Below the pieces are notes generated by a model. That model searched no databases and was not told the DNA's origin. It was given only the letters and a program-made list of their open reading frames with translations. From the NCBI RefSeq assembly GCF_964204865.1, contig NC_135252.1, positions 6,407,383-6,471,382 of the forward strand: a DNA stretch of 64,000 bases, in the 5' to 3' direction. Shown here one piece after another: positions 1,471 to 31,458 of the stretch; positions within the stretch are counted from its first letter, which is position 1; each line of letters begins with the position of its first letter. The position numbers and the translations under genes were made by a program. Source of the stretch: Styela clava (Eukaryota; Chordata; Ascidiacea; Stolidobranchia; Styelidae).

Positions 1471-4400
1471 ATTTGCTACAATACGCTCAGCTCAAGTTGT
1501 TCATCGGCAAATGTACGAGCATAATGAAGACAATCGACACAGAGAACAAATGCTGGGTTATAAACGAATGAGACAGCAACACCAGAAGCAACTGATTAAT
1601 TTTGAACAGAAATTGAAGAACGAAATGGATGAATATAGGTCGGAAAGTTTGAGACTTGTTTTAATAAAGCAGAATAATATTCAAATAAAATTTTTCTTTT
1701 GGTTTGGCTGATGGCTTTGTATGGCTTCGAATTTATTCCCTTATGAAATACTATGTTAAATAAGAAACTAATACATGTATCATGCTAATCCACATATGCT
1801 GGCGCTTATTGGAAACCTTATTACCGTAATCTATACAAAGTCAGTAGCTTTTAGTATTTCAGTGTTCACCTGTGACTTTACTCAGAGATGAGTCTTTTTC
1901 TTCTGATGGAGTGTGTGTGGCCTTGCTTTGAGTAAATTCTGTGAGAAATTTTTTACACCGTTGATATCTGACATTTGTATGGTATGCTATTTTCTTGCAG
2001 TGTGAAACTTGTAAAAGAGTTGGAAAGTACGCGATCTGCTTTTGCTCAAGAGCTCGATCGTTTGGTAAGAAAACATCAACAAGAATTAGAAAAAGAAGCC
2101 AAACAACAACAGGGTGACGATAAAAAATATCAGAAACATATCGGACAGATGCAAGATCAAGAAATCAAGGGATTTTTACAGCAACAGAAAAAAGATTACA
2201 AAGGCAAGAAAGAGCAGCTCAAAGAGGTAATTTTTACGAATATTATTTTTCCACAAATCGAAATAATTTCTTCAAGCTATACCTAGTGGTAAAACAATTT
2301 ACTAGTTTGAATATGTTTTTAAATGTTTTTTTTGAAAATGACAAATCAAGTAATTTGAGATTTGATTTGCTCAAATTATTGTCAGTTTATCCCCCTCACT
2401 TGGCCCGCAATTATTCTTCCGCTTCTAATTTGGCTCCCGGTCAATCAACTTTGGGACCCATGGTTTTGAAGGACTTCAGATAAAAGTTGTTTTGATTGAT
2501 TATTAATAGGCTTTTATTGATCGGAACATCATATAAATTTTCTAGAATTACATATTACTATTTTTTTCAGTATTTACCGAGTTTTTAACTTATTCCTAAC
2601 ATAAAAAATTTATAATATGAAATATAACCAATTTTGAATATTTGGTTCATCTTGGAAATCCCTGACTGTTATTGTTGTCTTTATTCATATTGATTAATTC
2701 AAAACTTTTATATCTATCCTCCATTTACACATGGAAGCAATAAGTCAAACAACTCTTTTTATATAATTGTAATTTCCCCTAGTGGATAGTTAGTGGATAG
2801 TTTTTTATTGACTGTACAATAATTGACAAGTTTTCCTGTCTCCAATCTAATCAATAATATTGACCAATTGTTAATAAGCAGTCGATTTTTATTAGTTTTT
2901 CAAACACATCTTAATGTATACAGGATTCTAATCAAATGCAAGGCAATAAAGAAGCTCGTGATGAATGGTTAACAAGGCAGATCAATACCCTTGTAACGAT
3001 GCACTCACAGGCTGAGAATCAACTCAGAGAACGTTACAATCAAACATTGGAATTAGAAGTTCGAAAATATAGGAGAAAAGCACTCTTGTCACGACACAAT
3101 CTTGAACAGGATTTATTACGGGAGGTTGGAAGTTGATATTATTCTTTTTTTTTATTTTCTAAGTAGGTTTGCCTTAGAAAGTCTAAGTGGGTAATACTCA
3201 AATATGACTGCCGTATATCCTGACCCCCTTAAAACAGTGAATTTATAGAAAAAAATTTGCATATAAACCGACCCTATTAATACCACACTGTAGGCACCTA
3301 ACACAGCAAATGCTTGCAGAAGAGGATTAGTGAAATTGATAACCATTATTCTTATGTTTTATTTTTATTAATAATTTAATTATTTAGAAGTGTCTAGTGC
3401 GATCAAAGATATGCGTGTATAAGCCGACCTTGGCATTTTTTTGTTTTGTGTGTTTTAAACTTGGCTTATATGCGAAGATATACGGTAATATATCCGGTAA
3501 TAAATTGCAGCCGAATATTCGAAAAATTTCTATCTAATGTCATAAATAATTTTACTGAATGCCATATGAAAGTATGCCCATGAATTCCTAAAATCGGCAG
3601 AATATTGGTCAAATATCTGTGAAACTGAGAAAATTTTTTATAGGAAATTACAGTAATGCCCTTTTAGCGACCTCTTTCATCTTTAGCTACTGATAATTTG
3701 AATTTGATTGGTCAATTAGTTGTGAAGAAAAAGGGAAACAACAATTTTGCTGCGAAACGATCCATAGGTACATTTCGTATCCAATAAATGGAGTATGTAT
3801 GCAATGAAGAAATTGGCGTTCTTAAAAACATAAATTTGAAACTAAGTTATTTTTTTCAGGAATTGAACTTGAAGCAGCAACATAAGGATAAAGAACACGA
3901 GATGTTATTGAGACAACATGATGCCACTCAATCTCTCGAGTATAAACATCTTCATGCCATTCACACTCAGCGTATAGAACACTTGAAGTAGGTTTTTCTA
4001 TATTCTATTGACATTGTATGTTCTTCAGTGAAGCTCATAGGATTAGGATTTCTCAAGCGTTGCCATTAACAACTATGAAAGTTACATGCGCTGGAAACAA
4101 ATAACTGGCTAACTAATCCCTTACCCAACATGGACTGATAACCCGATGATTGGAGGCTGTGGTTTGCCATATGATTGAGCCGTCTCATCGGCTATTCTCT
4201 CTCCAGGATGAATATGTATATCCTTTCTTATTCAAAGATTTATTTTATAATGTTTTTAAAATAATAATTTTAGATTTTGGTCTTCCCTTTCAGAAAGTGA
4301 CATCAATACTAAATTTGAAAATGTGTTACATGCTTTCAAAATTGTTTTCTATTGGACACAAAGTGGACCTGTGAATCATTTTTTCATTTTGTATTTTCTT

Positions 4401-7400
4401 TATCATCAGATCTCAGCACCAAACTGAATTATCGAATCAGATGGAATATTCACAGAGAAGAGAATCGGAACTCAAACGAAAGCATCTCGCTGCAATTCGA
4501 CAACAACCTAAGAGTTTAAAAGTGAGTGGCGCATCCGATAAATCGGCAAGTTCGCGTCGTTCCAACTTCTTGTCAGGTGGTTCCAGTGCTGTTAAGAAGA
4601 AATCTACTCGCAAACAGGACAATAAAAAAGAGAGCAAAATGTCACCTTCCAAATCGAGCAAATTTAGTGATTGTGTTGATGTGTGTAATGATATGATGTG
4701 TGAACTATGTGGTCTAGCTAGTTTGTTAAATATGGTTGATTGTTTGAGAGAGGATGATCTTTTTTCTATTTACAATATTTTGAGTAATCTTATTTGTTTA
4801 AATGATTTATTGATCGACTTTCAATTGGATGATGAATTTGAAGAAGCATCGAAGAATTTCAAAGAGAATGGGAGAACTCACGAAGAAAACGAATTCACTG
4901 AATCATCATCTTATTCCATGACTGATGCCATCAACATTACTGAAGAGGAATTGATGCAACTCGCAGCAGAAACTCAAGATGAGGAGGAACAGAAAAATCT
5001 TTGCGTCGGATTGAATACAATGCGTAAAGGAGGACAGGAAGAGGTTGTTCTTAGACTACGATCGAAACTTTTATTCTCCAAATCGAATTTAGATGATGCG
5101 GAAGTAGATCTTCACGCAGATGATACAAGTGATGAGGATATGGGTTTAGATGAAGATTCTGACACTCTAGATTCTATCCCAGAATCTCTCACATCACCAA
5201 CTGTGAGCGAGGCGGCCGAAGATAGCGATACGTTGGATTTACTCCCTCCTGAATTATGTAAAACTTATCCGGGTATTAAAATGCCTTCTCCTGAAGAAGT
5301 AGTGACGGAGCGTTCTAGATCACGTTCTGGGGTCGCAGATTCAAGACAAAAAGAACCGAAGAGTCCTGAGAAGCCTCAGAAAAGTAAGAGTTTCCCTGAT
5401 GTCACCAAAGGCCATCTTAAAGAGAATAAACCGAAAAAGTCTTCGAAATTGAAACCATGGATTCCTTCAGGATCGAGTGGCAGTTTGTCCATGGCAGATT
5501 CATCAAAGGATTTGAGACAGAAGGTGTTAACGAGGGCTGCAGAATGGTCCAGGAATTCAGCTGGGTTAAATACAGGTGCCGGAAAAACCTCTTCAAAACG
5601 AAATATTAGTAAAAATATTTTGGAAAGAACTAAAATCTTTTCTGGCTCTTCCAACATTGCAACAGTCATACGTAGGATGTCACCAGCTAAGCCAAAGAAA
5701 TCTCAAGATGAGCGACCACCATGGCGACCTACAACAACTTCAACACCAGTGAAACCTCTTCCTACTATTAAGCCATTTGTTATGAGAAAAGCTACACGCA
5801 AACATGAACTTGGGCTGAATAGGTCAGAGCTACAAAATCTCAAGTTTGGATTACATAAAGTGCTTGACCATGAGCAAGGAAGCTGCCAAAGTAAACCCTA
5901 TAGATCTCAGAGTTTGAACAATTCATCCTTTGGACGCGTCGCTTCTTCGAAAGCTCTAAACGCCCAACCAGCACAAACCTTCGCGTCGTCAAATGAGCCC
6001 CAAACAGATTACCAAGGATGTGAAGTGTGTCGTTTAAAAGAGGCAATGAGAAGTTCACCCATGGGTCACAAGCTGAAACAAACACCGCATCATTGCGCAG
6101 ATACCACCAAGACTATTACACCGGCAGAAAATATACCCAACCTTTTAAATCCCAGGAAAAGTTTTACACTGACCAGACCAAGATCATACTTGAAAAGCGA
6201 TGGGACAGTAACATTAGAGCAATCGCGGCGATCAAGTGAATTTGATGATACACCAGATGGGATGTCAACGTTCTATCTCAAGAAGCCGATGAAGAAATTT
6301 CTTTTTGCTGTAATGTTCTTGATGTTTTTACTGTCCTTAATTTATATAACAGTTTATCATCCATTCTATTTGATACCCTATATTGGGATTTGCTCGACAG
6401 CTGCAGTCCAGATCATCGAAAGCGACTTTTTCAAACGTCTGTCGAGTGGTGAAATGGATAAGGTATTTTTTATCAAATATCACTCTGCTGTCTCCAAGTG
6501 GAAATCGCTATCTGTGCAAGAAAAATTTTCAATGCTCGTTTCAGCAGTAAAAAAAAGTTACGCCAATGTAAGAAATACCGATTGGAAAGAATTTGCTCAG
6601 TCGTCATGGCAACATTTACAAGATCTCGATGAGAGCGCTTCTAATATTCCGTTCTGTATCGGAAACAGCTTGAAAATATGGATCGGATTGATTAGTCGTG
6701 GCGGAAAGCATATCATCAGCAAGTTCTCATCAATGGGTTCTTCTGAGAATATAATTCTCAAATTATTTGCAATCGTTCTTCTCTTTATGATTCTGTTTAT
6801 TTTCTATTTCTTTCCTAAATATACAGTAATTGGAGCAACTATCATCTGCACACTGATTCCATGTTTCACTTCAATTCTTAATCACTGAATTTTCCATTAA
6901 CATTTGTAAAAATATCTTTTTTAAAAACAATCTGGTCCACGTTCTCAACAAGTAGTATAGGAATGCCCGAAAAGTGAAAATTTCTTGCTTGAAGAGCATA
7001 GCCAGTTATATTATCAACTAATTCATTCTGGCTTATTCATATCAAGAGTTGTTATTTCGGTTATTTATCTATTGTTGAGTGAAAACACGAGTACTAAATT
7101 TATTTTATATATTACGGTAGTTATAACATAAATCAGTATCACTATATTAAACGATATTAATAATATTCTCAAGAACAAATTTGAGTGCTCCAGAAGTGTG
7201 TGTACCAATATGGAAGTGACTAATTTTGTACGCCTATTTACATACAAGTTGTGTAACGGGACTGAAACCTATGGGCAGGGTGTATATTCACTTGGCTAAC
7301 ACAGACAGTCCCTGACCTGATAATAGAACTAAAATAAGGAAAATTGGAATAAAATTATAGCCCTACCACAACCTGGTACACACATTACAGGAGTACCCAA

Positions 7401-10400: not shown

Positions 10401-13400
10401 TCGTCGGCAGACCATACTTGAGACAAATCCAAGCAGAGATAACCCGTTTTTTTGTGATTACATTGAATGGCAGTAATTTTACCAATTTTTTTATAAGAAA
10501 ACCATATCCCTGTTCTGGATAAATGCCTGTCCGCTTTGCATGCATTGTTGCGCTTGATAATATTAACTGCCTGATATTTTCTTTTTTTTGTTCTAATTGA
10601 TAATAATAAATATTACCATGCATGCTATCTGCTATCAAATACTAAGGTGTTAAGATTCAGTGTCGTAGCTTTAGTATAACACTATCTCTGACCTTGTGTT
10701 TTTGTGGACGACAAACAAGGACTTGTTTACATGTTATTGTGCTTGTAATAATAGTTATATATTGTCCTTAATCAAAATTTGTACATCGTTAAATATTAAC
10801 ATGCTAATATACTATAATAACTTTTTTGTAAACTCGTTTTTATACCTTTTGCAAATACACGAACACGGCTCTGTTGCTGCCAATTTACCAAATTAAATTT
10901 CGGCCTCGTCAACAAAAACACATGGTCAAAAAAAGAGTGTTATTTGAGAAATCGAGCAGAACAGTCTCAAATTGAGTTAGGGGGGCAGCAACGGAAGCTG
11001 ATGTACGCGTATTGTGATCGGTGTTAGCATTACTGACTCTGATGCGTCGTTTCGCAAATTTTTAGTTGAAAGAAAATCAGATCAAAAAACAATTTCACGA
11101 AACTGTCAAAATCCAAGAAAAGCAATACAAAGCATGGAGAAATCATGTACTAGAATCTGTTCCCAAAAAAGAGCAAAAAGAGGTGCGTACTTTTTTTTAT
11201 ATATTGAATTATTTAGAAACGTTTAAAAATGTTCCTCATTTTATGATTTTTTAATAGGTTTTAAGAAGAATGAAAGAAGAGCAAATGAGAAAACTCGCAT
11301 TGTTGGGTGAACAATACGAAAGATCAATAACGGATCTGAATCAAAAACAATCTGTAAGTAGTGACAAATTTCTATGGATAAGTGTTAAATTTGATTCAAA
11401 AAGAGTAATAAAGAGTTGGAGTCCATGCAATCTAAATGACATATTGGTGTAATGAACCTATGGAATCGTTTTGTAAATTGTTCTTGCTGGTGTTGTGTAA
11501 AATCACTTTTCTCTGTGACGAATCGACAAATCTTTTTGAATTTTTAGTACATAAAAATAGAAGAATTGCTTGTGCCTTTTTTTATAACTATTCTCATTTT
11601 TGACGGTCCTGACATATTGCTGTTTTATGTAATTCTTGGTCACACGATTATGGCGTTTATTATTTGGTAAAGTAATAATTTGCTGAAATTTCTGTTTCCA
11701 TGTTAGTTATTTGGTCTTAATGCTTCGTTCCAAAATTACTCTCTTTATTAAAACTAATATTTCTCCCTACTCATGAATTATTCAGGATTTATGAAGTCGA
11801 AGTAAATTTTTCAAAATTGTAATTTTGTCAGGTTAAATTGTCTGACGGCCAAGAGAAAGAACGTGGTCAGTTACAAATGCAATTACAACAGGAATTAGAA
11901 TTGTTGACTGCTTATCAAAGCAAGGTGAAAAAAGTTATGGAACAGCAGCATGAGAAGGAACTCAAAGATCTAGAACAAAAGGTGTCACTTCGTAGAGCAA
12001 TGTTGGAACAGAAGGTGATTTTACGTTCATTTTTTCCCATTGCGTTCATTTAACCCAAACAAAATGTTTTTAATTTTTATTCAAAAATACCAATGTCGGA
12101 ATGGGCCAAACCATTGAACATGAACATGTGCATCTATGTATTCCTGAGTGAATTAGGATAGCCTCTGAGATTTTACTCCATCCTGTTCAGGATAATACAA
12201 ATGGGCATGCTGACTGGGAGAGACGGCCTAGCAATTAAATCGCTAGACCATGGTGTGTAACAGGCGGCCTGTGGGCCTCGGCCCACTGAGCCATTTAATG
12301 TGGCCCTTGTCAACACTCGGATTTTCCCCCATCAATCATAAAATCCTAATCAGACTGTTTATGTATAAAAAGGTGCTCACATGGGTAAAAATACATAATG
12401 TTTGACCAGTCAATTAAGGGTTGCTTCAACTTCTGTCAAAGCTGATGTTAACAAACTATACAAGAACTCGGAATTTCAAGTATCCCACTAAAATCTTAAA
12501 TAAGTAAAATTTAGTTTATAAGATCCGCCGACAAAAAATGTTGCACACCCTTGCGTTAGACTAACTGCTTGTTAGCATAGCAGGTTACACTTCTTGGGTT
12601 CTAAATCCATGCCCATCACATCACCCAGGTTGTAATAAATTGGGTTGTTAATGTCGAACGCGAAAGATTTCAACCCTTCCAAAAATAGTAGTCTGTTGCA
12701 TGTCAGTAGGTGCTTGTACTGAGCCTTGTTCGAAGTGAATGTTAGTATAAAACTTCAACCTGAAAACCTCCAATGCCAATGATGACTAAAAGTTGGGAGG
12801 TTTTATTTGGTTTGCTGTTATATTCAGTGAACAAAACATGTGAATCATGTAGCGATGTAGGGAAAATTCTATCCGAAGCATTTATCTTACACAAGTACTG
12901 GTACTTTGGTTTAACGACTATTTCTTGTTCTTTCAGATGGAGGAAGACAGTGTCAAACTTCAGAATGAGCGGCGCGAGAGAATCCGAAGTTTGCTTGAAC
13001 AACAAGGAGGAGAAATAGAAAATTTTGACGCAGAAAGTTTGCGTATGGGGTTCTCCACAGTCGTCATAACAAACTATGGTGATCATGTGTTTGTTGATCC
13101 CCATGTGCAGTCTGGAACACAGGGCTCTGCTCCAGGGAATTTGCATGTGTCTGCTTCCACGTCTGCTATTGGAAAAAGTGGGCCACATGGCGGAATGCCT
13201 CGAAGCAGCAGTGGCACCAGTATACGATCTGTCGGTGCAGTGGGACAAGGTCCTGGACTTTCTCATCCGTCTCAGCCATATTCTCACAAAGCCGGCAGAT
13301 CCAGTTCTGACGCCCCTACTCGAGGTGGAACTTCTCAAGGCCACTCTTATCAACGCTTGGACTCCTCTAATAGTAACAGAAATAATAGTTCCCGTATAAT

Positions 13401-14039
13401 GACTGGAAGCCCGGTTATGCAACGGAGGGTATTGGAATCTGACATGAATGCATCTACTGGGCGGAATAATCCTAACATGGATCGTGTCATGTCACAGTCA
13501 TCAAGAAGTACACCACAGCCAGATGATAATTCAATAGTTCAAAGGTTAATGGCTGCTAACCGACCCAGCAGTCGAGGTCCGCCATCTGAAGCAAGTTCTT
13601 CCGGTGTGAGTTTGACTGTCTATATAATCTGTTAGTTATATTTAATAATGGTTGTTAAAACGTGTTTATATTTTTTTTACAGATGCAGCAAATTAGTGGA
13701 ATGTCACATCATGGGTCAACAACATCCCTGCCTGCTTCATCTGGATATATGAATTCAAGACATGCTAGGTCTGGTAGAAGTTGGGATGGTGCAGATCGAA
13801 CAGGTTCATGGTCGGCCCGCCAAGAACAGCAACGGTACCTCAATTCTCATGACAGTCCGTTGCCTGTTCGAACACAGAATCGGGGAGAACGTTCGTCACA
13901 TCAATCAAGTCGGCAAATACATTCTCGGATTCAAATATCCGGTGATAGACTCGTGTCAGATAGACGTTCTGAATCCCCTTCTCGTAATAAACAGACAGGT
14001 GGTGTAAGCGGAACCTCGTTTTCATCCTCATTCCATTAA
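1471..14039 (+). CDS. TAOK: TAO-family serine/threonine kinase, C-terminal coiled-coil half, spliced (short) isoform; 5' partial
   Basis: TAO kinases are STE20-family MAP3Ks that act in p38/JNK and Hippo signalling and on microtubules. Only the C-terminal regulatory half is here. Exons with matching phases: 1471-1638, 2001-2226, 2924-3124, 3860-3987, 4410-4521, 11066-11182, 11258-11353, 11832-12014, 12937-13605, 13683-14039. Recognised family blocks in order are [106 protein letters not shown] and [20 protein letters not shown]. These give about 750 residues of near-continuous coiled coil, followed by a Ser/Gly/Arg-rich disordered tail of about 320 residues that is longer than in vertebrates. 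Exon phases agree across every junction. The kinase domain is outside the window. Which vertebrate TAOK (1, 2 or 3) is closest cannot be said; one pre-duplication gene is likely. Confidence 0.93.
4085..4222 (+). repeat. Partial copy of the SINE-like repeat
   Basis: The block with AACTGGCTAACTAATCCCTT, ACATGGACTG and a later CCAGGATGAATATGTATATC matches the right half of the longer copy at 37559-37907. It lies in a TAO-kinase intron. Confidence 0.5.
4410..6888 (+). CDS. TAOK: Alternative long terminal exon of the TAO kinase: membrane-anchored isoform
   Basis: The exon that ends at 4521 (RQQPKSLK, donor GTGAGT at 4522) can instead be read through. It then stays open for 788 more codons to TGA at 6886-6888. 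The added tail has a Ser/Lys-rich start, an acidic middle with a repeated DSDTLD motif (near 5158 and 5224), and a long basic Ser/Pro-rich part. The end carries four hydrophobic segments in two hairpins (about 6298-6357, 6361-6420, 6757-6813, 6823-6882). Vertebrate TAOK2-alpha reads through after the same QQPKSLK codons into a tail with several membrane segments, and that isoform is reported on the ER, tethering microtubules. The tail shows no evident residue identity to TAOK2-alpha; the shared feature is branch point plus topology. Use of this exon in transcripts is inferred. Confidence 0.85.
7175..7406. mobile_element. MITE, family A (about 32-bp imperfect inverted ends), copy 1
   Basis: The ends are imperfect inverted repeats: ACAAATTTGAGTGCTCCAG at the left, and the reverse complement of the right end reads ACAAAGTTGGGTACTCCTG. 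The interior (ACCTATGGGCAGGG, TTCACTTGGCTAACACAGAC, AACTAAAATAAGG) recurs at 26173-26409 and 52296-52485, and a fragment at 50841. No coding capacity. I could not define a target duplication. Confidence 0.6.
9131..9333. mobile_element. hAT-like non-autonomous relic
   Basis: A CAGGGGCTCTCAAACTTTTT-type left end and a GAACCCCTCTG right end enclose about 200 bp containing TCGCGGACCGCTC. This is the usual look of short hAT derivatives. The flanking TATTCCAG/TGTTCCAG could be a degenerate 8-bp target duplication, but its placement relative to the end is ambiguous. Confidence 0.4.
12249..12553. mobile_element. hAT-type MITE with near-perfect 8-bp target duplication
   Basis: The ends are CATGGTGTGTAACA and, inverted, CAAGGGTGTGCAACA. 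They are flanked by CGCTAGAC (12241-12248) and CGTTAGAC (12554-12561), 7 of 8 bases equal. The length is 305 bp with no ORF. It lies in the TAO-kinase intron between the exons ending at 12014 and starting at 12937. Confidence 0.7.
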
Positions 14040-18427: not shown

Positions 18428-20933
18428 ATGAAGTCATTGCAAATATTCGGCACTATCGCTGCACTGGTATGGGGTGTTTCAGCTCAGTTTCCAAGAGACT
18501 GCACTACGGATATTGCGCTCAATGATCGGGAATGCTGTCCGCTGTTGGTTACGAGTGACGGAATTTCTTCAAAGTGTGGTACAATGCAACAACGTGGAAA
18601 TTGCGAAGACATTGAAATTTTTGTTGATAATGATCTTGATAATGAAACTGAATTTCAGTTGTCGTTAGATGAACGGAAGATGTGGCCTAAGATGTTTTAT
18701 GACAGAGCATGCAGATGTCATGGTAATTTTGATGGCATCAATTGTGGTGTCTGCAAACCAGGTTATGGGGGACCAAACTGTGAAAGTGTCATGCCTCTGT
18801 TGGTACGCAAAAACATTCTAAAGATGCCGCGAAATGAGGTAAATGAATTCGTAGATGTTCTTGATAAATCGAAACACACTACCAGCGAGAGGTATGTGAT
18901 TTTAACGTCAACGTACGACCAAATCCTCGCTGGAGCCAGACCGCAGTTCTCAAACATATCCGTATATGATTTATTCGTTTGGATGCATTACTACGTTGCC
19001 AGAAACAACTTGGTCCCTAATGAGAGAAATATTTTTGACGAAGTGGAAGACATTGAACTGGTTATGACCAAACTAAATCCAGATTTAGATATAAACGACG
19101 AACACGATTACGCCCACGAAGGCCCTGCATTTCTTCCTTGGCATCGTTATTTTCTTCTGAAATGGGAAAATGAAGTCCGAGAGTTGATGGGTAAACCCGG
19201 ATTTACGATTCCATACTGGGACTGGAGAGAAAGTGAAACTTGTGAAGTGTGTAACGATGAATTCATGGGCGGGAGAAGCAGCAATAACGTAAATCTCATT
19301 AGCAACGAATCCGTATTTTCCAAATGGCAAGTTATATGCACAAAAGATGATGAATATATTCTAAATGGAAAGCAATGCGACGGAGAACCCGAAGGCCCTC
19401 TGCTTCGTAACTTTGGAGCTTATGACCCAAGCGTGATTGCAGGACTTCCAACTACCGAAGACGTGAGAACTTCTCTTCGATTTTCTGCTTACGAAACTTT
19501 TCCTTACAACAGAGTCGCACATGGAAGCTTTCGAAACGTCATTGAAGGTTTTGCGGACCCGAAAAGCGGCGAAGCAACGGCTGGATTCAGCACCATGCAT
19601 AATGCAGTACATCTTTACATGAATGGCACCATGTCGGAAGTGGGTTCGTCAGCAAATGATCCAATTTTTATTCTTCATCATGCATTTATTGACAGTATAT
19701 ATGAGCTTTGGTTACGAGAACAATCGCGCCAACAACTATTTTTATCATTGGACGGCCCTAGATCAAACATTAGCGTAGGACACAATCTTCAAGATTTTAT
19801 GGTACCATTCTTTCCGCTCGTGCGACAAATTGAAGGATTTCGAACGTCTGCAGAATTAGGATTAAAATACGAGTATATTCCGGAATCTGAAGCTGGAAGC
19901 GGGGATTTCGATGTTGATGTACAAATCGATGAAGATATTGGAAAAAGGAGCGATAAAAAAGAATCACCAAATAATGTGCTTGATTTCATTTTTGAAGAAA
20001 ACCTAATACAAGCAGAAGAGAGGTTTTTCAGCGAAGGTAATTTCGAGGCGCTGACAGTCGAAGGAGTAGTGTCAACCGTGACCAAAATGAAAGTGGTCAA
20101 AAGAATATCAAGAGTGAGACCAATCAAAAAGAAAACAGTTTTGCGCAAGGTGAAGCAGAAGCATAATCCGAAACACCGGGTTGCTGAAGGCGGAATAGAT
20201 TTAACTCCCCGTCGACAAATGAGTCCCAAAGTTGGTTTATCTTCTGCTGCTCTGAAGCAAACCAGTAATGCTGATGTGGGTGTTGAGATGAACAGTTTTT
20301 GGAACAAACTTATGGCGTTTGCTTATGATTGGCAGAAGTTCTTCACAAATATGTCAATCAATGATCAAATTGTATTCTTTTTTGTTGTCGGTGTCACGAT
20401 CTTCTGCGTATTCCTTCTGATTCTTGTATGTTGTTCTTTTCGCCGAGAGCAAAGGGAAGAAAAGAATATCAAAAAAGGTTGGTGAACATTACGGTGTAAA
20501 TATGTCACATGTATTAGATTGATACTTTTTTCTATAAAAACTGTAAACCTAACTTTTTGTCATTTTGATCTCAACCAATACCAAAGCTAACTAAACACAT
20601 TCATACTCATATTTTGTATATATATAAAAGTGGTAAAAATATATATTAAAAACTATATTGTTTTTTTACATTTATTTATCTTCAAAATAATCCTTTTCAA
20701 GTGTACATTGATTTTGACAAAAATACTGAACACTTGTTGTTTTACCAGGTCCACGCAACCCATGTTACAATTGGTTTTATCGTGAGACTACCTTGGATTA
20801 CGATGCTGAAGAATCACAAGGATTACTGAAAACTTGTGAAGACGGGAAACTAAAATGCAAAGTAGTGCTGGCAAAAACCTACACTTATGAAAATGACGAT
20901 TTGAAGAACAATTTGGAGTACAACGTTATATGA
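18428..20933 (+). CDS. TYR: Tyrosinase, TYR-type, membrane-bound copper oxidase
   Basis: Catalyses tyrosine hydroxylation and dopa oxidation, the first steps of melanin synthesis, in melanosome-like organelles. Exons are 18428-20477 and 20749-20933, phase 1, giving 744 residues. A signal peptide (cut after VSA, residue 19) leads into a Cys-rich EGF-like region (CRCHGNFDGINCGVC). CuA histidines are H187, H230 and H239 (HEGPAFLPWHRYF); CuB histidines are H391, H395 and H418 in MHNAVHLYMNGTM and LHHAFIDSIYELWL. The HHAF pattern is TYR-like; TYRP1 has LHTF. A basic linker of about 170 residues precedes the membrane helix (about 646-668), making it longer than human TYR (529). The second exon encodes the cytosolic tail with a YNWF motif and the dileucine motif EESQGLL, like the EKQPLL melanosomal signal. 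The ATG was chosen over an in-frame GTG at 18413. The donor GTTGGT is weak; retention would end the protein at KKGW. Confidence 0.93.
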
Positions 20934-25888: not shown

Positions 25889-27609
25889 CTATTTAATGCA
25901 TATCGATTTCGGGCAATAACTTTTTTCTTCATTGATCAGCGGATACCTTTCTCCGAGCTGTTCACTATCATCACTGAAAACCATTTTTCTGCATTCGTCT
26001 GCAAAAAGAATACACATATATTGAAATGTATGTGTCGAAGTTTCACCAACTCAGTGGTCGAATTTCGGTGAACCGGATCAAAAGACAATTTTAAAATATA
26101 GGTTTCAATATTGTCTACTAGTGACATAAAAGTACGATTTTAATGTAAGACAAGCCGATGATATATATTTAAGCGCAATAATGGAGGCTCCAGAAGTATG
26201 TGTAACAATATGGGTGTAATTAATTTTGTTCGCCTACTTTGCGCATCAAGTTGTGTGAAGAGAAGGAAGGCTATGGGCAGGGGTATTCACTTGGCTGGCT
26301 AACACAAACAGTACTTGAACTCGTAATAGAACTAAAATAAAGAAAATCGGAGTAAAATCATGGTTTAACTCTGACCTGGTTCACATACCATGGGAGTGCT
26401 CAATAATGTATATATGATAATATGAAAACGAAATTAAAACAAGTATAAAAAATTACTCTACTTTTGTGGGCTTTGTAATTGTCTTCGCCAGTTGACTGAT
26501 AAATGCGGCAGGCCTTCACTAGATTCATAATTGCTCCAGCCAGTGGTGGGATTCAATTTTTTTGTCAGTCAGTTTCATCACAAAAGTCATATTTTCAGCC
26601 GGTTCTGTTACCAACATAACATTGGCAGTAACGAGTAAAGCTAACCGGTTCGCTGATCTCATAAAATTCCGTGAGGCGGTTCTATAGAACCGGTGCGAAC
26701 CGGCTGAATCCCACCACTGGCTCCAGCTGAACCTACCGTCTGGTTATGAAAAAGTTAGTGCTCACCTGGCTTTCTATATATAAGAACTTGCTGTATCTGT
26801 CTGGAGTAAATACAGGAGATTCCAATCGAAACAAAACAGATCACAGTTACTGACAGGGTGAAAATGAAAACGAATCGATGCATTTTGATCGTATGCCAAG
26901 TGTGTGATGCAACATCGGAGGTCAGTTCGAGGAACCTGTTAAACAATTTTCTCCACGTAGTTCTGCGACCCTCTTTGGTGGATAATTGTGATGGATTTCG
27001 GTTCTGTTCCTTGCTAGTACTGACCTTTTGTTGTAATTTGTTTGAATATCTCAAATCTCGTTTACCCCGGCTTAGTGGTCCATCTTTGCTAATGCTATTA
27101 GTTGCCGCTTGGCTGACTTTTTTGTAGTATATCTGACTTTGAACGTTCTTCGACAATCGTAGTTTTGTGCTCTTTGGAACGTAGTGCGTTGCTGGTGTTT
27201 TCCTGATTTTGAACCCGTTCAAGATGGGTTGTGTGCATCTCGGACCAGTAAAACCATTCTTACATCTTCCACAGTTGCTACCGGCAAAGTTCCCAAAACA
27301 CTTGCAACCTTGTTCCAAAATGCGAGCATTTATACCATTGTTTCTATGCTTATTCTTGGGAGATTTAAAATATTTTTGGAGTTTGGTATTTGAACTAGTA
27401 ATTTGCATGATTCTACTGAAGTAGCATATACCTCTGCCTTCATGACTTCCGCATCTTGACGACCCAGTCGATGTTGCTAGCATTGGACAAAGTTTATTCC
27501 TACTGGAATCGTCATTAGTAGGCTGCCCTTTGCGAAGAAACTGTGGTCGAGCCTCAACGGAATCCCATGTGAAATACAAAATCGCTATATGAAGAAACGA
27601 AACGTTCAT
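25889..27609 (-). CDS. Tyrosinase-like membrane protein without the copper catalytic domain
   Basis: Exons are 27609-26766 and 25998-25889, phase 1, giving 317 residues. The product has a signal peptide (MNVSFLHIAILYFTW...), then a Cys-rich block aligned with the tyrosinase N-terminus (CPMLATS, RCGSHEGRGIC, GCKCFGNFAGSNCGRC, GFTGPRC). The family would continue into CuA and CuB here, but a basic linker with RGKR follows directly, then one membrane helix (FVFIFTLSVTVICFVSIGIS) and a second-exon tail. The tail carries ERYPLI before NEEKSY, closely like EKQPLL-MEKEDY of human TYR. The phase-1 intron before the tail matches the tyrosinase at 18428-20933. One exon spans Cys-rich region to helix, so the catalytic domain cannot hide in an intron. 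An upstream in-frame ATG (27747) precedes the TATA box and is rejected. It may be a decoy, matrix or sorting protein; enzymatic activity is excluded. Confidence 0.8.
26173..26409. mobile_element. MITE, family A, copy 2
   Basis: GGCTCCAGAAGTATGTGTAA at the left and a GGGAGTGCTC right end form imperfect inverted repeats. The interior matches copy 1 at 7175-7406. It sits in the only intron of the tyrosinase-like gene. Confidence 0.6.
26541..26719. mobile_element. hAT-type MITE with perfect 8-bp target duplication
   Basis: The ends are perfect 15-bp inverted repeats CAGTGGTGGGATTCA / TGAATCCCACCACTG. The element is flanked on both sides by GCTCCAGC (26533-26540 and 26720-26727). It is 179 bp, non-coding, and in the intron of the tyrosinase-like gene. 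Its intact ends suggest a fairly recent insertion. Confidence 0.85.
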
Positions 27610-27678: not shown

Positions 27679-27686
27679 ATTTATAG
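27679..27686 (-). promoter_or_regulatory. TATA box of the tyrosinase-like gene
   Basis: On the minus strand TATAAATG lies about 70 bases before the preferred ATG at 27609. This places the transcript start after the upstream in-frame ATG and so decides the start codon. Confidence 0.55.
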
Positions 27687-30600
27687 TTGTCGCTGCAGTC
27701 GTTGTTTCCTCGCAGCATGTGATGTCTGTCATATGATTAGACTTCAATAAAATATTTCCTGCTTCGCCAACTTAAAGAAATTACTTAATATCCCATTGTG
27801 ATAACTTGTCCTATTCCGACGATGCTTGTGTTATTGATGCAAACTGGGGTGATGGTGGCGAGAATTGATAAGTTTAATGGCACAAAAATGTAGTTCAGAG
27901 ACGCATATAACAAGTACTGGAGTACGATAGAATTACTTTAATGAACAACCGAATATGTTACAATTTGAGTAGAATTATTACGTCTTGTCATCGCTTCTAA
28001 CTTTAAATCTTTGCCCGACAGAACAATCACGATAACTAAAAAAGTAAAGAGGTGGATAACCAATAGGGACTAGGAGTCACATTTCTTAGTTAACGTTTAG
28101 ATCCGTCAATCCATATCACCTTAAAGATACGATTGAATAATATTTAAGTCGCCTTTACCTGTCACACATACGCAAAGGCATTATCACAGATTGTTTTAAA
28201 TTGACCAGATTTACTGTCATTCACCAGAAGGAATAAGTCTACATTCGTATGTCATATCGATCGGTTGATGCGATACCATGTTGATATAATAGTTTGAAGT
28301 ATAGAATGTACATTTACATAATTTTCATCAATATATATGTATATAAATTAATCTTTAACTGAACGCAGAAATAGAAGAGAAAAATTCTTATGTTCCATGT
28401 GAATTGGATATCTATATCAGACACATATGTAATACACGTAATAATTACACATAAGTATGAAGCAAGTACTATTTCTTCGCAGAAACATAATGGATTTTCC
28501 AAACAATAAAATAACCTCTCGACACGAGAGTAAAGTTAACCCTTCGTTGTATGCTGTTCACAGCATAGTAAATTCTTTTTCGTTATCCAGCATTTAAGAT
28601 CGAGACGATTTGGGATCAAAAAAAGGCGATGGTTTTCAAATATGGAATGAAGACAAACTTCAACTACACCCCTATGTTATCTAATTGTTTTAACTGGTGC
28701 TTGATCTTCTTCACAAATAAAAAAAAAATGTATTCTGGCATTCAATGGATATTGTTCATAAAGGTCTTTGAGCCCTATTTACCCTTCATTGATTTGTGAC
28801 GAGAGGGTTAACATGACAACATTATTCGAAGGAAGGTAATTTGACGACACCGGTAATTGTTCTCGCGTATTGTTGCCATGCTTACAGAAAACAAGGTTTT
28901 GACATATGATATTTACCTTTTCTTTCAGGAGGGTATTTAAATTTTATTAAAAAATCATTTGCAGTTGTGCGTGTTGTAATTACGGCGAACTATTTGTACG
29001 AGATGACACATGAAGTATAGATGAGAGTTAATATTGAGAATTATATAGATTGGGCAAGGGGTAGGTGACACGGGCGGTAGATATAATGTAATCCTATGGA
29101 GTGTCATTTATATCTTGAACAAATTTCTCAATGTAGTGCATTTATGATTTACGAGATCTAATACTGTTCATATTAATGCAATAAACGGGTGCATCGAGGC
29201 TGACCAAATATAGATCACAAAAAACAAGGGAAATTTATTTCAGCTCATCTATGAAAATGAGGGGTCTGGATTTGGCGGTAGTAACATTCAGTAAATTGCT
29301 GCAAATAAAATTACTGCTATAAAAGCATTTTAGAGCGACCATATAGATTGAAATCCTGTCGGTTAAGCTAGTTATAAAAATTTTAGGCAAACATTTGAAG
29401 TGAAATAAGGAGCGAGAACAATATCAATGCTATAGCTCGCGTAGTTTTATAGTAGTTGCAAAATATTTCATACAAAGGCCGACTTGGTGTAGTTGACCAC
29501 TATATCTAATTATCCATAATAAAACATTGGTGGAATGTATTTCCACGAGCGGAATTTTCGTTAAAAAGTAAATATTCACTACTATGGCCGTCGTATATAT
29601 CTATATGTACTTATGTATTTTTAAACTGTAGCTTACATGACAAGGGAATGTTATTCTTGTCTCTCAAGGACTCGTTCGTGTTGGAGTGGGTGGGTGCGAC
29701 GCTTGCTACCATTGTTCACGAGCACTTTAAAGATTGAATCCTATTATAAGTCTCGGTATTATTTCACCTTTTTAAATTTTTATTGTTACAGTTTGGGGAT
29801 CGTTCGTCTGGGATGAATAAAAGTATTTGGATAAGTGATTATAGGTTTGGCATAATACGATGACTAGTAATTTTGACATAAAATTGGTGTCGAATTCCAA
29901 TAGGTATATAAAATGGACCGTAAAATTACTCTTAATTGTATGTCAAATTTAGTAGGGACTGTAACTGCGTTTGGTGTTAGGGTAGCTTAGTAGCGTATTA
30001 TTGAAGACATGATTAAAATTTACCGTTACGAAAAGTAATTGGCTAGACAACAAAACTCGACTAACATATTCTGATACTTTATTTTGAAACTGATTATTCT
30101 AAAAACCAGACTCCAGTAGTTGCAAGCGTTGGGCTAAATTATAACATACCTTGGGGTCGGTTTTATAGGTGTTTGTATAACGAACAGGCAAAGTTTTTAA
30201 AACTCAAATACCTGTTTGGCGGATTGACATAGCTATGAATAAATGAGGGGATGTTTCGACGATAATGTTTAATCTTAATGGTAGGCCACGTCAGGCGGTA
30301 TTCAATACCTGAAATGTGTAGAATTCCATTCAGAACAATTAAACGTATTAAAATATGCGCATTTAAATGGCCTATCCAGTGTGTATGTATGCATAGCCAT
30401 TTAGGCCAACAAAACATCCAACTAACAATGGTACTGGTAAGTGGTAGCCGAATTCAAAAGTGATAAACCTTTTCAGATTGCACTTCAAAACGATTTCCTT
30501 GGCCGCGCTAAAAAAATTATAAACGATGATTATGTCTTACAAACCATCGTACAGCTGTAAATAATAAATTTATCAAAAGATAATCTTCCTCTTAAGATTT

Positions 30601-31458
30601 GTTTGAACATTTTAATTTGAATCATGTTGTGGAGGGTAAAACGCTATTGAAAAGCTTTCAACAAACTTGAGAAAACCACAATTCAAATAGATGTCTTCAG
30701 AATGTTGGAGAGGTTGCGTAGAGATATATTTGAAAACATGCTAGTTTTAGTAATTCACTTAAGTATATATACATATATAGCATGTACGAGAAACTGATGG
30801 TACTGAATAGTTTTTTAGTTCACAGAAATGTTTTATGATTTCATCTCATAGACGCATGTGAGTTGATTGCTCGAGGAAGAGATCAACTTTCGTATATATA
30901 TCGAGTGTGGAATGGTCAAAAAGAAATACCCGATGGTTTTTTCCTTGTAAGCTCAAGATTTCTTTACCCAAATTTGAATTTTGTTTCAAAGCTGCTCAGG
31001 CTTGTTCATTTGGCAATATGTTTTAATAGTTTGGGTAAACGGTAGGCCATAAAACTTCAGATGACGAATACTTGTTCAAACAGTTACGCCCATTATTTCG
31101 TTTACTCAGAAATAATAGTTTAACTTCCGTCTTGTAATTATTGTTTGAAAAGGAAGTATGGAACTAATCAATATAGGGCCCACGATTGTTTTTTGACATA
31201 GTCGCAGTCCTCAAATGAGAAATGAATACCTTACTCACCTAAAAACGAGAATCTTAGCTATACCAGGTTTAATCTCTGATATACATCTGTAAGCTTCACT
31301 TCGGAAAGTTTTAGTTGCTATGCGCTTCTGAGTGTTTAAAGGTTGTTAAGGAAGATCTATTTATTCTATTGTAGACAAGTATATTGGCTCACCTTCTTTG
31401 TTTTCTGTACTTATCCAAGTTATAATAATAAAAAGTGCAGTCTGCAATTTTCCTAAAG
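27687..31458. other. Intergenic region between the tyrosinase-like gene and the SPMIP4 homologue
   Basis: 3.8 kb of AT-rich sequence between divergent genes. I find no recognisable exon or RNA gene. Short ORFs here (for example near 28314-28502 and 30163-30463) look like chance. Confidence 0.5.

Follow-up and report, generated by a model that had tools for sequence, protein, structure and literature searches.

A probable tyrosinase paralog without a catalytic domain beside the tyrosinase gene of Styela clava

Can a tyrosinase gene lose its catalytic domain and remain a working gene and, if so, what could its product do? This question arises from a locus of the ascidian Styela clava, where a full-length tyrosinase gene (hereafter Tyr) adjoins a gene that encodes the accessory parts of a tyrosinase without the copper-binding core. 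The window analyzed here is the entire stretch of 64,000 nucleotides, and all positions given below without a contig name refer to it.

Gene structure and the missing catalytic domain

The gene occupies the minus strand of the window between positions 27609 and 25889 and consists of two exons, the spliced frame of which translates into 317 amino acids followed by a stop. Exon 1 (26766..27609, minus strand; 844 nt, 281 codons plus 1 nt) encodes a signal peptide, a Cys-rich domain, a basic stem and a membrane helix, and ends in phase 1 at the donor CCAG/GTGAGC. It is followed by a phase-1 intron (25999..26765, minus strand), which is equal in position and phase to the intron of the neighboring Tyr, and by exon 2 (25889..25998, minus strand), which starts at the acceptor TTCTTTTTGCAG/A and contributes the cytoplasmic tail and the stop. 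The donor sequence CAGGTGAG occurs a single time on both strands of the 64-kb window, exactly at this position. When read without splicing, the frame runs into a stop within 11 bases of the donor, so that the tail requires exon 2.

Several features indicate that the gene is probably real. At the observed stop frequency of 0.059 per triplet, an open frame of 281 codons is expected with a probability of about 3e-8 per start. A TATA box (TATAAA; 27680..27685, minus strand), a match to the consensus only, starts 76 nt upstream of the ATG, and the neighboring Tyr has a TATAAA that starts 66 nt upstream of its own ATG. Under the criteria commonly applied to pseudogenes, no disabled frame, broken splice site or lost start was found. 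Codon usage neither supports nor refutes the frame and is uninformative: exon 1 outscores all but 0.36% of 5000 non-coding stretches, and its other two forward frames score about equal or higher, with a training set of three pieces, one of them out of frame (18 stops). The heptamer TCACATG at 27716-27722, upstream of the gene, which we take to be an MITF-type E-box, was given no weight because the window contains 13 copies against 11 expected. The intron itself harbors a MITE with terminal inverted repeats (26533..26727) that carries GCTGGAGC at both flanks; its 23-nt inverted arms are 91% complementary, flank included, and, from the 8-bp flanking duplication, we presume it to be hAT-like.

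The CuA and CuB histidine sites and the PF00264 domain by which a type-3 copper enzyme is recognized are absent from the paralog. PF00264 has no Pfam match in exon 1 up to E=1, compared with E=8.2e-41 for exon 1 of Tyr, and the sole Pfam match of any kind is EGF_laminin (E=0.0048), below the cut-off. A Smith-Waterman comparison of the stem with the catalytic part of Tyr scores 25 against 28 +/- 4, with 1581 of 2000 shuffles as good. Nor does a catalytic remnant appear elsewhere in the window: apart from Tyr and the paralog's own Cys-rich region, all tblastn matches of Tyr have E of at least 0.2. Those near 30807 (E=6.2) and 49660 (E=0.31 and 0.20), considered as hidden remnants, were taken as noise. 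Thus, the sequence-only reading, which had described a signal peptide, Cys-rich region, helix and tail without CuA or CuB and had held the domain to be lost rather than hidden, agrees with our results in coordinates, frame, splice sites and domain content, and its view of the loss is borne out by exon 1 and by the window outside Tyr.

Elsewhere in the window, a coiled-coil-like frame at 1972-2286 (PKK match, E=7.9e-4, below the Pfam cut-off) and a long frame without Pfam match at 12853-13635 are presumably parts of a TAO kinase gene. An open frame of 837 codons at 4375-6888, without Pfam match up to E 0.1, includes hydrophobic segments toward the C-terminal end.

Relationship to the neighboring tyrosinase

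The Cys-rich region is the part of the paralog that can be traced. In a pairwise BLASTP comparison, residues 41-161 match Tyr with 32% identity (E=3e-14), and a PDB search matches residues 40-130 to human TYRP1 (E=4.9e-8). The Smith-Waterman score of the Cys-rich region against Tyr is 136, compared with 29 +/- 5 for shuffled sequences, none of which (0/2000) is as good. Cysteines are conserved preferentially, with 8 of 10 kept against 40 of 146 other aligned residues (Fisher P=0.0014). By these comparisons, the region is clearly homologous to that of Tyr. The signal does not extend beyond it. The stem scores 37 against 29 +/- 5 when compared with Tyr 501-645 (198/2000 shuffles as good), and residues 131-165 do no better than chance against the matching Tyr stretch (977/2000). 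Residues 212-285, around the helix, give 0/2000, but shuffling breaks up the hydrophobic block; without the helix, 646 of 5000 shuffles are as good for residues 212-244 and 836 of 5000 for residues 200-244. The stem, and likewise the tail considered below, is not alignable to Tyr at the level of sequence.

Which member of the family gave rise to the paralog can be addressed through gene structure. Tyr lies on the plus strand, with exon 1 (18428..20477) running from the signal peptide to past the membrane helix and a separate tail exon (20749..20933), and matches human TYRP1 over residues 20-482 (E=9e-103). The two genes are convergent, with 4955 bp between their stop codons. Tyr is itself unusual in that the signal peptide, catalytic domain and helix of its 744-aa product all reside in one exon; between core and helix, an acidic stretch (485-548, net -13) precedes a basic one (549-644, net +16). 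In both Tyr and the paralog, the Cys-rich region is uninterrupted and the helix is followed by a phase-1 intron (in Tyr 20477/20749, just past the helix), so the earlier observation that the tail exon follows a phase-1 intron as in the neighboring tyrosinase holds. In all 3 Tyrps that were read, one on contig C2 and two on C9, all named Tyrp by sequence likeness, a break separates the first from the second cysteine cluster of the Cys-rich region, and a single open frame covers helix and tail as far as the stop; the exon ends of the C9 genes are judged from translated matches only. Because the intron and the unbroken Cys-rich region are common to Tyr and the paralog and absent in the three Tyrps, the paralog most likely descends from Tyr as a copy. 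Its structure matches the single-exon state of Tyr, which suggests that the loss removed the core from within a single exon. The loss would amount to roughly 390 codons within this single large exon, a figure judged from the end of homology and the start of the basic stem, and may have been a single in-frame deletion.

A search of the 376.6-Mb assembly (379 contigs) with exon 1 at E 0.001 returns three places, namely, the paralog itself, as one copy without stops, Tyr (E=1.1e-10) and a Tyrp exon on C2; the search against a collection of viral contigs found no relative. PF00264 occurs at 16 places in the genome, and Tyr is the only one on this contig. The two Tyrp genes on C9 are arranged head to head at about 8.963-8.983 Mb (L025 and L026). 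Further PF00264 places are found on C10 (several clustered at about 16.859-16.929 Mb), C6, C5 and C18; the stretches fetched there have no match to Tyr at E 0.01, and these places, perhaps a separate and more distant group of tyrosinase-domain genes, were left out of the four-member cysteine comparison below. The same genome contains one place with a GH6 domain (E=1.5e-6), whereas the search gave no match in any of 14 control genomes; a frame on that strand, about 2.3 kb farther upstream, has TED and QxxRW motifs and reads like a cellulose synthase. A cellulose synthase joined to GH6 is a tunicate hallmark, and this pair identifies the animal as a tunicate.

The predicted protein and its possible function

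The predicted product is a type I membrane protein composed of a signal peptide, a Cys-rich/EGF-like domain, a basic stem, one helix and a tail with the motif ERYPLI (all coordinates on the minus strand). The signal peptide (27547..27609; residues 1 to about 21, cleavage site placed by eye) includes a helix at residues 3-19 in the AlphaFold model, at low confidence. The tyrosinase-type Cys-rich/EGF-like domain (27235..27489; residues 41-125) retains 8 of the 10 family cysteines; AlphaFold, run on exon 1 with a two-row alignment, gives no fold for this part (mean pLDDT 44). The lumenal stem (26878..27228; residues 128-244, net +19) occupies the place of the catalytic domain. It contains RGKR (27058..27069; residues 181-184), which we take to be a motif of the proprotein-convertase type and which has no counterpart in Tyr; the motif is short, and the protein is perhaps cleaved there, in which case a cut after RGKR184 would free a piece of 163 residues with a computed net charge of +26. 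The membrane helix (26806..26877; residues 245-268, ends placed by eye) has a hydropathy of 2.57 over residues 246-264, and AlphaFold extends a helix over residues 215-278, confidently only around the membrane part.

The charge of the protein sets it apart from its neighbor. Residues 22-244 have a net charge of +33 and a pI of 10.6, rising to about +40 at pH 5, and the Cys-rich part has +12 compared with -6 for Tyr residues 20-156. After the signal peptide, the paralog has no N-glycosylation sequons, compared with six NxS/T in Tyr. In composition, the stem (K+R 21.4%, D+E 5.1%) resembles Tyr 549-644 (K+R 21.9%, D+E 5.2%), a likeness that is no more than suggestive, because this segment was picked post hoc and the wider Tyr 501-644 has a net charge of only +8 as a whole.

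The two missing cysteines correspond to a bridged pair of TYRP1. The N-terminal region has ten cysteines in each of the 4 catalytic members compared (Tyr and three Tyrps) and eight in the paralog. In the corresponding region of TYRP1, we take C113-C122 to be the fifth bridge. For this region, PMC5855855 lists C30-C41, C42-C65, C56-C99 and C101-C110, and PMC8508144 describes five bridges, the first being C30-C41; the pairs C29-C40 and C41-C61 are reported for TYRP2 (PMC8836267). When the paralog is aligned to TYRP1 (5m8q, chain residue 1 taken as Q25), Leu40 falls at C41 and Cys41 at C42, and there is no cysteine at C30. Given the TYRP1 pairings, the two cysteines that are gone are partners, and the eight kept are those of the other four bridges. 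In the numbering of PMC8508144, the Cys-rich subdomain spans 25-126 and the tyrosinase-like subdomain 127-477, and the loop E168-T176 neighbors the C30-C41 bridge. Because this loop belongs to the tyrosinase-like subdomain, the equivalent of C30-C41 is plausibly the bridge that a protein without the core can best spare. The paired loss lends support, short of proof, to a Cys-rich domain that has adjusted and still folds; taken alone, it is weak because the probability that two cysteines lost at random from ten were partners in one of the five bridges is 0.11.

The tail carries ERYPLI (25934..25951; residues 298-303), an acidic dileucine motif that overlaps YPLI, a motif of the YxxPhi type. Dileucine and YxxPhi motifs are known sorting signals in the tails of tyrosinase and TYRP1 (PMC5855855), and the Tyrp tails of this genome contain YQRLI, YQKII and YQEIV. 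In 100000 shuffled tails, the frequency is 7.1% for [DE]xxxL[LI] by itself and 58% for YxxPhi; a longer pattern, modeled on the human letters quoted in the sequence-only reading, is present in 0.013%, but its choice was made with the tail in view. The likeness to tyrosinase tails proposed in the sequence-only reading therefore stands as a motif of the sorting type and does not extend to the tail as a whole, which has no significant similarity to the tails of Tyr (1736/2000 shuffles as good) or the C2 Tyrp (1134/2000). Sorting of the product to a lysosome-related organelle is plausible on the strength of this motif.

That the protein has been under selection, as previously proposed, is supported indirectly, for the past. 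In the Cys-rich region, synonymous sites between the paralog and Tyr are saturated (pS 0.90, dN 0.74). Simulations that imposed no constraint and excluded indels, with 3000 frames at each level, left 0.27% of frames open at 0.1 substitutions per site, whereas all had closed at 0.2, 0.3 and 0.5 (0/3000 open at each). An open frame at saturated synonymous divergence, when neutral frames close by 0.1-0.2 substitutions per site, indicates that the frame was under constraint at least until recently. This result leaves the date of the core loss free, as an old full-length copy from which the core was deleted late would give an equal picture.

We tentatively favor, with a probability of roughly 0.4, a working gene derived from Tyr, the product of which is a non-enzymatic cargo or scaffold of the melanosome that binds melanin or enzymes of the tyrosinase family. 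Under this scenario, duplication of the neighboring Tyr gene followed by loss of the catalytic core would have produced a working protein-coding paralog. Once in the secretory path, the product would fold its EGF-like module with the eight remaining cysteines and be anchored by the one helix, and its ERYPLI tail would direct it to a lysosome-related organelle, either the melanosome or a different one. At this destination, the basic lumenal part (about +33 at pH 7), perhaps cut after RGKR184, would act without catalysis as a scaffold that binds polyanionic melanin or tyrosinase-family enzymes; the polyanionic nature of melanin is described in PMC7995992. Expression, location, cleavage, binding and function are what we infer. 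The "decoy" of the sequence-only reading is one of several candidate functions, and the basic lumenal part together with the eight cysteines suggests a scaffold at least equally.

A partner or decoy, which we regard as unlikely, would pair through its Cys-rich module and helix with Tyr or a Tyrp in the ER or the melanosome and act as a chaperone, a stabilizer or a dominant-negative brake, the tail serving only for co-localization. The module and intron common with Tyr and the adjoining, convergent position of the gene fit this role, and in human tyrosinase models (PMC10487697), the Cys-rich subdomain is rigid and the N-terminus lies at its interface with the catalytic subdomain. However, the lost cysteine pair is the one adjoining the catalytic domain, on the side where an enzyme core might be expected to make contact. 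We make no firm choice between scaffold and partner. Less likely, and on balance improbable, is a dying or dead relic, in which the frame of a duplicate without core is open only because the loss is recent. The uninformative codon usage and the unalignable stem leave room for a relic, as does a late deletion in a long-diverged full-length paralog, which is possible as judged from one genome. Against it stand the signal peptide, the eight cysteines, the helix, the acceptor, the TATA box and a near-consensus donor unique in the window, as well as the rarity with which simulated neutral frames survive even 0.1 substitutions per site and the single genome copy, which is free of stops.

Slightly more improbable still is a membrane-anchored EGF-like ligand, or the cargo of a non-pigment granule in a blood or tunic cell, with no relation to melanin. 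The layout of the paralog, from signal peptide through EGF-like module, convertase-type site and helix to the tail, resembles that of growth-factor precursors, and the only Pfam match is the sub-threshold EGF_laminin; yet the cysteine pattern aligns with tyrosinases, and the tail has a candidate signal for sorting to organelles. An artefact of the gene model or assembly, with the catalytic domain on further exons or a tail exon that belongs elsewhere, is very improbable. Exon 1 runs unbroken from signal peptide to helix, so that in this reading there is no further exon in between, and it lacks PF00264; the window holds no Tyr-like remnant, and the contig's single PF00264 place among the 16 is Tyr.

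Comparison with known systems

PMEL is a non-enzymatic matrix protein of the melanosome with a dileucine tail and convertase cleavage. The paralog resembles it as a type I, non-enzymatic protein with a lumenal convertase-type site and a tail of the ExxPL[LI] type, and might work alike; it differs in that exon 1 has no PMEL-type domain among Pfam domains up to E=1. The further idea that, in tunicates, a tyrosinase took on a structural role in the melanosome, its EGF-like module and strongly cationic stem serving as a melanin-binding matrix and as an independent counterpart of vertebrate PMEL, is doubtful.

The Tyr and Tyrp families of tunicates have been described, and the parts of PMC3334994 and PMC5516394 that present them make no mention of a tyrosinase without the core. 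Likewise, an intact paralog of this kind appears in none of the titles and abstract openings among the matches listed in a literature search whose scope lay mostly outside subscription journals. A parallel is provided by the Tyr and Tyrp.a pseudogenes of Molgula occulta (PMC5516394), which are also tunicate tyrosinase loci without a working catalytic domain; these genes are broken by frameshifts, stops and insertions, whereas the paralog is open and its accessory parts are complete. The tunicate tyrosinase family may exceed its current count because surveys based on the tyrosinase domain would miss such genes.

Like chordate TYR, TYRP1 and DCT and the tunicate Tyr and Tyrps, the paralog combines a signal peptide, a Cys-rich/EGF-like domain, a single helix and a short tail, in its case with a candidate dileucine/tyrosine sorting signal. 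Unlike the chordate tyrosinase family, it has no metal-binding core and no sequons, has eight rather than ten N-terminal cysteines and is strongly basic. The split between TYR and TYRP in the chordate family changes the metal site. In a paralog that retains the other parts but has lost the catalytic domain, sorting and structure would be uncoupled from the chemistry of the family, and the roles of the Cys-rich domain, stem and tail on their own could be read from a natural experiment.
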